A stretch of 64,000 nucleotides of DNA, taken from positions 191,001-255,000 of the forward strand of contig NZ_OY776411.1 of assembly GCF_963675585.1 (NCBI RefSeq), given 5' to 3'. The translations under genes and the position numbers were made by a program. A model generated the notes under the pieces. The model saw only the letters and a list, made by a program, of their open reading frames with translations. It ran no database searches and had not been told where the DNA came from. Shown here one piece after another: positions 42,382-43,545 of the stretch. This DNA comes from an uncultured Draconibacterium sp. GTDB taxonomy: Bacteria > Bacteroidota > Bacteroidia > Bacteroidales > Prolixibacteraceae. How positions within the stretch are numbered: position 1 is the first letter of the stretch; every line of letters begins with the position of its first letter.

Positions 42382-42456
42382 CAGAAGACGCAAAAACATG
42401 ATTTTTTTCATATTTTTTATTTAGAATTAATAAAAATTACATATCTTGCAGCCAAT

Positions 42457-42531
42457 ATGAAAAACACCTGTTCCAATATGATGATGTGTTGTTGTTTCCT
42501 TGATTCAGGGAGGGGTGATATTTTTGTATAG
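42457..42531 (+). CDS. Cys/Met-rich leader peptide upstream of cysK
   Basis: A 24-codon reading frame, ATG at 42457 to TAG at 42529-42531. Its codons 8-10 are three consecutive ATG (Met) and codons 11-13 three consecutive TGT (Cys); codon 5 is also TGT. The peptide reads MKNTCSNMMM, then CCCFLDSGRGDIFV. Four Cys and four Met in 24 residues, directly before an intrinsic terminator and the cysteine synthase gene, is the signature of a ribosome-mediated attenuation leader. A weak -7 candidate TATCTTG (42442-42448) lies just upstream. No long protein is possible here. Confidence 0.75.
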   Translation: MKNTCSNMMMCCCFLDSGRGDIFV

Positions 42532-42589
42532 TTAAACAGCTAATATCAAAATAATGAAGACCTTCCTGAATAATCAGGAAGGTCTTTTT
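42465..42589 (+). promoter_or_regulatory. Putative cysteine-responsive transcription attenuator of cysK
   Basis: Segments found by hand: 1 = CACCTGTTCC (42465-42474); 2 = 42504-42517 (TTCAGGGAGGGGTG); 3 = 42557-42569; 4 = 42574-42586. Segments 3 and 4 form a perfect 13-bp stem with a 4-base loop and a T-run (42585-42589), the terminator. Segment 2 can pair with CCTTCCTGAA of segment 3 over 10 bp (one G-U), the antiterminator. Segment 1 can pair with 42508-42517 (one mismatch, two wobbles), which would free the terminator when no ribosome translates. A ribosome waiting at the Cys codons (42487-42495) would disturb segment 1 and leave segment 2 free. Confidence 0.7.
42557..42589 (+). terminator. 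Attenuator terminator before cysK
   Basis: Perfect 13-bp stem: AAGACCTTCCTGA (42557-42569) and its complement (42574-42586), loop ATAA, T-run to 42589. It lies 44 bases ahead of the cysK start and after the leader peptide stop. It could also be the terminator of the upstream exporter genes, but the leader frame between argues for attenuation. Confidence 0.88.
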
Positions 42590-42633
42590 ATTTGTAAAAA
42601 ACAGATTTACCGAAATAACTCAAAATAATAAAA

Positions 42634-43545
42634 ATGAAAGCACAGAACATTTTAGAGACCATTGGCAACACGCCACATGTAAAATTAAACCGACTATACT
42701 CTGATGATTACGAAGTATGGGTAAAAGTTGAGAAAACAAATCCGGGAGGAAGTATTAAAGACCGTATCGCACTTTCGATGATTGAAGATGCCGAACAAAA
42801 AGGCATTATCAAGGAAGGATCGGTAATTATTGAACCCACATCGGGAAATACTGGAATTGGCCTTGCATTGGTTTCGGCGGTAAAAGGATATCGCCTGATA
42901 TTAACCATGCCTGAATCAATGTCGCTGGAACGCAGAAAAGCATTGCTGGCACTTGGAGCAGAACTGGAGCTTACGCCAAAAGAAAAAGGAATGAAAGGAG
43001 CCATTGCAAGAGCAGAAGAATTGGCCGAAGGAATTGAAAACTCGTGGATTCCTTTGCAATTTGATAATCCTGCAAACGTTGAAATCCACAAAAAAACTAC
43101 CGCTCAGGAAATTTTAAAAGATTTTCCTGAAGGTTTTGATTACCTGATTACAGGAGTTGGAACCGGTGGACACATTACAGGTGTAGCCGGTGTTTTAAAG
43201 GAAAAGTTTCCAAACCTGAAAGTATTTGCAGTTGAACCCGATACCAGCCCTGTAATTGGCGGGAAAGGACCCGGTCCTCATGGAATTCAGGGAATTGGCG
43301 CAGGATTTATTCCTAAAAACCTCGATACTAATTTACTGGATGGAACAATTGAAATTAGCAAAGAAGAAGCTTTTGAATATGCACAAAAAGCAGCAAAACA
43401 AGAAGGCCTATTTGTAGGAATCTCATCGGGAGCATCGTTGGCAGCTGTTGCAAAAAAAATCAAGGATCTTCCAAAAGGATCGCGAATTCTTACCTTTTCG
43501 TACGATCATGGAGAAAGATATTTGTCGATTGACGGACTTTATTAA
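42634..43545 (+). CDS. cysK: Cysteine synthase (O-acetylserine sulfhydrylase) CysK
   Basis: Makes cysteine from O-acetylserine and sulfide with PLP. The 303-residue product has the PLP lysine in [18 protein letters not shown] (about residue 41), the substrate loop [16 protein letters not shown], the [20 protein letters not shown] phosphate-binding loop and [11 protein letters not shown] near the active site. Length fits CysK/CysM-type enzymes. No other sulfate-assimilation gene is adjacent. Its leader region contains the Cys/Met leader peptide and terminator described above, so its expression is probably tuned by charged tRNA-Cys supply. Confidence 0.95.

Follow-up and report, generated by a model that had tools for sequence, protein, structure and literature searches.

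Ribosome-mediated transcription attenuation is well established for the trp, his, ilv, leu, thr and phe systems of E. coli, and the E. coli trp leader is a proven attenuator. To our knowledge, little is known about the control of cysteine synthesis in Bacteroidota. Cys leaders have already been published for mycobacteria and Rhodobacterales. In Mycobacterium, cys operons carry Cys-run leaders without terminators, according to the available text of PMC1262725, and leaderless, cysteine-responsive poly-Cys ORFs are described in the accessible parts of PMC4633059 and PMC9031893; the leaderless poly-Cys short ORFs of Canestrari 2020 are taken here as cited in the available parts of PMC9031893 and PMC13236596. 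In Rhodobacterales, the uORFC-8-2 motif lies ahead of cysS together with a terminator, as described in the accessible portion of PMC8632094. Within the Bacteroidota, leader-peptide attenuation was suggested for amino acid operons of Flavobacterium psychrophilum (PMC9723704), and sORFs were reported for Bacteroides thetaiotaomicron (PMC7366714); the available portions of these two papers mention neither cysteine leaders nor cysK or cysE. Term look-ups in the accessible text of PMC2965389 and PMC4833913, which deal with premature terminators and leader genes, returned no Cys leader in Bacteroidota. In our literature search, which covered few subscription journals, neither cysK nor cysE turned up with a Cys attenuator in this phylum, and an earlier prediction may exist.

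In the window, that is, the whole 64-kb stretch of DNA analysed here, the cysteine synthase gene cysK is preceded by a short leader that we read, from comparison of sequences and with a probability of about 0.88, as a ribosome-mediated transcription attenuator sensing charged tRNA-Cys. A Cys attenuator of cysK is strongly supported by the conservation of the leader, its gene context, covariation and the preference of the segments for their own partners. The same leader design recurs in other Bacteroidota, and the cysK enzyme is probably made only when ribosomes are short of cysteine. The features of the locus are as follows:

42420..42449, + strand: predicted promoter, with TTTAG at 42420-42424 (-33 region) and TATCTTGC at 42442-42449 (TAnnTTGY -7 box)
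42455..42474, + strand: segment 1, at the predicted transcript 5' end and covering the start codon; forms the 1:2 duplex with segment 2 at -18.9 kcal/mol
42457..42531, + strand: leader ORF encoding MKNTCSNMMMCCCFLDSGRGDIFV, from the ATG at 42457 to the TAG stop codon at 42529-42531; homologs at 31 of 32 close cysK orthologs
42478..42486, + strand: three Met codons (codons 8-10), lineage-specific and probably not a sensor; 12 of the 41 distinct leaders have the triple, 18 have no Met before the Cys run
42487..42495, + strand: proposed control codons, three Cys codons (TGT, codons 11-13), read directly; run common to relatives
42503..42529, + strand: segment 2; 42503-42513 pairs with the terminator 5' arm (2:3) and 42508-42529 with segment 1 (1:2)
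42557..42571, + strand: segment 3, the 5' arm of the terminator; its part 42561-42571 forms the 2:3 duplex with segment 2
42556..42589, + strand: intrinsic terminator (3:4), 14 pairs with a 4-nt loop and a U tract to 42589
42634..43545, + strand: cysK, cysteine synthase A (TIGR01139, PF00291), the proposed regulated gene

An earlier note on this DNA had described a 24-codon frame with three ATG codons followed by three TGT codons and a further TGT at codon 5. Direct reading of 42457-42531 on the + strand confirmed this frame, the extra Cys codon lying at 42469-42471. The 13-bp intrinsic terminator that had been placed ahead of cysK is present as well: 42557-42569 pairs with 42574-42586 around an ATAA loop followed by T's, and G42556-T42587 brings the stem to 14 bp. 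Likewise, the 10-bp pairing of 42504-42513 with 42561-42570, including one G-U, was recovered, and the best 2:3 duplex gains A42503-T42571, for 11 pairs and -17.5 kcal/mol. The proposed 1:2 pairing of 42465-42474 with 42508-42517 also exists and had been drawn too short, since it belongs to a longer duplex between 42455-42474 and 42508-42529 (-18.9 kcal/mol). The U tract ends 44 nt before the ATG of cysK at 42634, and the 303-residue product scores 405.2 bits against TIGR01139 (cut-off, 350.95). No tRNA genes were found within the 64-kb window. A gene encoding a heavy-metal-associated (HMA) domain protein lies further downstream.

As in trp-type attenuators, a conserved predicted ORF with tandem Cys codons, an intrinsic terminator, an exclusive antiterminator and an exclusive 1:2 protector are all found here. 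The likeness to trp extends to tandem codons for the product of the pathway, a stop codon placed so that a ribosome there would cover segment 2, mutually exclusive 1:2, 2:3 and 3:4 pairings, a terminator before a biosynthetic gene, and a similar profile of trpL and the cysK leaders in a stall-folding computation. The differences are the use of Cys instead of Trp, the predicted near-leaderless start, the control codons, which lie between segments 1 and 2 here and inside segment 1 in trp, and the position of segment 1, which is the predicted RNA 5' end here and often contains the start codon (30/46 leaders). The trp layout previously attributed to this locus thus holds for its logic and fails for its anatomy.

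The cysK leader stands out by its phylum, its predicted near-leaderless leader ORF and the placement of segment 1. With uORFC-8-2 it shares a short ORF, tandem Cys codons, an intrinsic terminator and a proposed tRNA-Cys transcription attenuation. The accessible description of that motif sets it apart, as it belongs to Alphaproteobacteria and cysS and has two Cys codons, usually at positions 14-15, located in the first stem. Location speaks against identity with uORFC-8-2, as the Bacteroidota leaders precede cysK, cysE-like or cysM-like genes and not Rhodobacterales cysS. The mycobacterial leaders may resemble ours in that a leaderless, cysteine-responsive poly-Cys ORF lies ahead of cysteine genes there, and a predicted near-leaderless Cys-run ORF lies here. 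However, as far as the available portions of those papers go, mycobacteria have no conserved terminator hairpins and use translation attenuation, whereas both an intrinsic terminator and an antiterminator are conserved here. An identity of the mycobacterial type, which lacks a terminator and acts on translation, is thus contradicted by the conserved intrinsic terminator. The F. psychrophilum and B. thetaiotaomicron work concerns the same phylum and, in the parts available, shares with our locus the suggestion of leader-peptide attenuation for amino acid operons.

A search of 61 genomes yielded 32 close cysK orthologs of the genus, one of them partial. Ahead of 31 of the 32 lies a leader in which two or more Cys codons are adjacent and which is succeeded by a terminator; L030 is the one close ortholog that lacks it. 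The leader frame and its Cys codons, whose conservation in close relatives had been proposed as a check, are thus kept. Among the matches listed, the closest named CysK records come from Draconibacterium, Maribellus and Mariniphaga, with identities of up to 88%, which suggests a Prolixibacteraceae-like bacterium as the source of the window. The leader frame tolerates insertions of 3 and 6 bases, and the Cys run is maintained while its codons switch between TGT and TGC, with at least four spellings in the genus. Together with 16 leaders found elsewhere, these 31 make a set of 47 leaders chosen for at least two adjacent Cys codons and encoding 41 distinct peptides. Across these 41, the peptides measure 20-31 residues and the longest Cys run comprises 2-5 codons and starts at codon 7-16 (codon 11 in 28/41). 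In the same genus, genome G031 has a paralogous second cysteine synthase-like gene (L050) with its own CCCC leader and terminator, in addition to its predicted cysK attenuator (L028). At three loci (L007, L013 and L016), an extra stretch between the terminator and cysK contains another short ORF starting with MKQVP or MTQVP.

The frequency of such arrangements by chance was evaluated on two scales. Within the 64-kb window, 72 short ATG ORFs contain a triple-residue run; a terminator comes after two of these ORFs, and Cys is the repeated residue only in the cysK leader. We then took 80 named CysK loci, the best 80 among the matches listed and not chosen for leaders, and scanned both strands of their 738,520 bases for ORFs of 10-40 codons that start with ATG, contain the same residue three times in succession and have a strong terminator within the next 75 bases. 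Cys runs accounted for 21 matches, all on the cysK strand: 12 directly ahead of cysK, 8 ahead of cysE in cysE-cysK operons and 1 (L082) between these genes. The same scan returned A 1, E 3, I 1, L 3, M 4, T 2, V 4 and 0 for the remaining residues, and the four M matches and three of the four V matches are ORFs already counted as Cys leaders. Since 9 of the 21 Cys leaders come from genomes already in the genus set, 12 are additional. The strict leader is present in only 21/80 named CysK loci, the majority being without it, and in 9 of the 46 that have a cysE-cysK operon. A more lenient scan for CC pairs was rejected as too permissive, with Cys pairs in 25/80 loci and Leu pairs in 24. In L082, the poly-Cys leader and terminator lie at 1813, between cysE and cysK (2001) and therefore inside the operon; such an internal leader would uncouple cysE from cysK.

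A covariance model was built from the 31 genus leaders and run on 295 genomes of the order, 119 of which gave matches at E<=0.01. Most of these were taken as chance terminators, given that a Cys-run leader with a terminator was held by 7 of the 30 loci scanned, namely, the window, G019 and five loci from other families (L133, L134, L137, L143 and L152). Cys codons are built into the model, but the genes downstream played no part in it, and all five other-family leaders precede a CysE-like gene followed by cysK. These CysE-like genes score 143-167 bits against TIGR01172, below its cut-off of 210.65, and 2/5 reach the cut-off of an EpsC-type model. The second genes, cut by the locus end, encode cysteine synthases with cysK or cysKM as the best model (278-296 bits). 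A second leader copy elsewhere in the genome was rejected, the next best match of the covariance model (35.4 bits versus 120) being within noise, and no Cys leader was found at the genome's own cysE. Among 30 CysE loci from the class, five were flagged for a Cys ORF and a terminator-like hairpin; three were accepted (L177, L194 and L206), and L188 and L189 were rejected by eye.

A pattern made of Cys codons and the core motifs of segments 2 and 3, and tied to no gene, matched 18 of 61 relatives, including 17 in the genus at the already known cysK leader, while its reversed control matched 0/61. The eighteenth match (G043) falls within a long open frame and was rejected. The window's own leader variant is not matched by this pattern. 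Across 395 genomes of the class, there were five matches, with one genome matched by the reversed control; a cysE leader (G566) and a leader of a cysM-like gene (L232) were accepted, and G095, G562 and G590 were rejected. The L232 locus (G467) contains, on the reverse strand at ~1470-1830, two tandem poly-Cys leaders, each with a terminator, ahead of the cysM-like cysteine synthase gene. Most sampled loci outside the genus have no leader. No convincing His-run leader was seen ahead of hisG in 20 genus loci.

Covariation was measured in an alignment of the genus leaders with 31 rows, 29 of them distinct. The terminator stem is paired in 99.1% of cells and has 34 double-changed cells versus 9.6 in shuffles, and both sides change in 5 of 11 pairs. 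The 2:3 antiterminator is paired in 93.1% of cells, with 25 double-changed cells versus 10.8 in shuffles, while its counts of changed pairs and of pair types are not above those of shuffles in the same alignment. Pairing 1:2 is weak column-wise, with 70.0% of cells paired and 4 double-changed cells versus 1.4 in shuffles; the position of segment 1 shifts among leaders, and a column alignment is unable to track this shift. The check for covariation in three stems that had been proposed thus came out positive for 3:4 and 2:3 and weak, column by column, for 1:2.

Duplex energies do not depend on such columns of an alignment and were therefore compared leader by leader. For the 31 leaders and 200 shuffles, the mean 2:3 energy was -18.3 kcal/mol versus -8.0 with a shuffled segment 2, and the mean 1:2 energy was -13.5 versus -9.2 kcal/mol. 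In 17 of the 18 distant leaders (L194 left out, L067 and L177 included), segment 2 paired with its own segment 3 at -16.1 kcal/mol, with the partner from another species at -11.7 and with shuffled sequence at -8.3; the corresponding 1:2 values were -13.2, -10.2 and -10.5. Partners were also permuted among 27 leaders, comprising 12 representatives of the 31 genus leaders and excluding the weak rows L067 and L177, whose 2:3 energies are -7.6 and -3.1 kcal/mol, respectively. In this set, 0/5000 permutations reached the observed mean, for 2:3 and 1:2 alike, and the 1:2 duplex with its own partner measured -14.4 kcal/mol versus -10.3 with other partners. In L177, a GGAAAGG segment lies 3' of the stop codon, outside the stretch tested for 2:3.

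The spacing of these elements was measured in 46 leaders. The distance from the last Cys codon to the first paired base of segment 2 has a median of 12 nt (range, 6-20), and segment 2 begins 16-30 nt upstream of the stop codon. A ribosome footprint extends ~12-15 nt downstream of the P site. From the position of segment 2 relative to the Cys and stop codons, a ribosome stalled on the Cys run would leave segment 2 mostly free, and one at the stop codon would cover it. In the window, the first paired base, A42503, lies 7 nt past the last Cys codon, and a ribosome waiting at codon 13 would thus overlap a few bases at the beginning of segment 2; the GGGAGG core (42508) starts 12 nt past the last Cys codon. 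In 30/46 leaders, two or more start-codon bases fall within the 1:2 duplex, and the fold adopted when no ribosome is present would therefore also silence translation of the leader. Sequence comparison thus shows the leader frame with its Cys run, the terminator, the complementarity of both 2:3 and 1:2, the spacing of the elements and the association with cysK, cysE and cysM genes.

Equilibrium folding with partition functions, in which the ribosome was placed on the Cys or the stop codons, hardly separated the states and favoured the terminator in the mean of each (0.95-0.99). A ribosome on the Cys codons left the terminator with a mean probability of 0.95, dropping to 0.45-0.6 only in L020, L024 and L026. 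The E. coli trpL control gave 0.98-1.00 in the same computation, and since this control behaves alike, equilibrium folding neither supports nor refutes the model, and kinetics must decide. Before segment 4 exists, the antiterminator region folds at -19.5 kcal/mol here and at -15.6 kcal/mol in trpL.

The promoter motifs suggest where the transcript begins. TTTAGA followed by TAnnTTGC occurs in 21/31 genus loci, and 35/47 leaders (27/31 in the genus and 8/16 others) have a TAnnTTTG or TAnnTTGY box that stops 4-10 nt short of their ATG, all other distances to ~110 nt before the ATG holding 9 boxes in total. In F. psychrophilum, SM5 promoter boxes span -12 to -5, according to the accessible part of PMC9723704. 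Applying this spacing would put transcription initiation 0-6 nt upstream of the leader ATG, at ~42454 in the window with a 5'UTR of about 3 nt, and implies a near-leaderless leader ORF. Such a leader would be unusual, as leaderless mRNAs represent 5.5% in F. psychrophilum (PMC9723704) and 5'UTRs under 10 nt ~3.7% in B. thetaiotaomicron (PMC7366714), as given in the available portions of both papers. No -7 promoter box was found between the terminator and cysK in 31/31 loci, and, together with the kept frame and the covariation of 2:3, this means that none of the three outcomes named as refuting in the earlier note was encountered. A further box occurs at 42519-42526, within segment 2 of the window.

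We infer the steps that link these elements: where transcription starts, that the ribosome stalls, that polymerase reads through, and in which kinetic order the RNA folds. Transcription would begin ~3 nt upstream of the leader ATG, with a ribosome initiating on the near-leaderless start codon. When Cys-tRNA is scarce, the ribosome would wait at codons 11-13, between segments 1 and 2, thereby blocking 1:2; the GGGAGG core of segment 2 would remain free and pair with segment 3 while segment 4 is still to be transcribed, so that the terminator would fail and cysK would be transcribed. When Cys-tRNA is plentiful, the ribosome would reach the stop codon and cover segment 2, and 3:4 would terminate transcription. 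These two states follow the known logic of trp attenuation. With no ribosome loaded, 1:2 would form, hiding the start codon in many leaders, and 3:4 would again terminate.

The earlier note had proposed an attenuator sensing both Met and Cys. The Cys half is strongly supported by conservation, gene context, covariation and pairing; the Met half is not. Stalling at Met codons 8-10 under Met scarcity, which would also switch cysK on, finds its argument in the three Met codons directly preceding the Cys run in the window and near relatives. However, a triple Met before the Cys run occurs in 12/41 distinct leaders, all from the genus, with one Met in 11 and none in 18, and the cysE and cysM leaders examined have no triple Met, which makes a joint sensor improbable. 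Slightly less probable is that what the Cys run senses, by way of the nascent peptide, is redox state or a thiol-reactive metal and not tRNA-Cys charging, with the terminator switch unchanged. Poly-Cys peptides can bind metals, and the HMA-domain protein gene lies in the same window, but distant leader peptides share little beyond a Cys run that itself varies between 2 and 5 codons, the identified target genes make cysteine, and the distance from the Cys codons to segment 2 fits codon stalling.

Two further explanations concern the switch itself. Attenuation could act on translation or RNA stability instead of termination, as reported for the leaderless poly-Cys ORFs of mycobacteria in the accessible part of PMC9031893. 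The conserved intrinsic terminator with its covarying stem and competing antiterminator argues against this, as do the U tract ending 44 nt before cysK in the window and the lack of such conserved hairpins in the mycobacterial cys leaders, as far as the available text of PMC1262725 describes them; we hold this explanation to be very improbable. The least probable of the four is an incidental leader ORF, with a protein or small molecule binding the RNA to control the terminator. Stem-loops alone could indeed serve a riboswitch or an RNA-binding protein, but an Rfam scan of the window for known riboswitches, T-boxes and leaders found no family that reaches its gathering score (the best sub-threshold matches in the leader included PyrR, with 34.9 of 54 bits, and Phe_leader, with 26.2 of 55), the Cys run is kept despite TGT/TGC changes, and Cys runs recur amid different flanks.

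The preferred reading, transcription attenuation through charged tRNA-Cys, offers a concrete and testable mechanism for the control of cysteine synthesis that recurs in Prolixibacteraceae and other Bacteroidota families. It would be a likely case of attenuation in a phylum without Shine-Dalgarno-led initiation, and a leaderless leader ORF could let the ribosome load as soon as the RNA emerges. We see an even chance that these leaders form a scattered, phylum-wide Bacteroidota class of near-leaderless poly-Cys attenuators of cysK, cysE-cysK and cysM, in which the start codon lies in the protector segment and one helix would block both the antiterminator and leader translation. Such a class would be unlike trp and would represent a case of convergence with mycobacteria, but acting on termination.

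Additional motifs were seen around the promoter. The TAnnTTGY box, which is SM5-like and an alternative motif in F. psychrophilum, is found in most genus leaders, and several leaders from other lineages use the ordinary TAnnTTTG. Upstream of the promoter, an inverted repeat (ACATGA-N6-TCAT) at 42396-42411 of the window is possibly an operator. The motif is present in 15/31 genus loci, and its place is taken by another palindrome in L007, L013 and L016.
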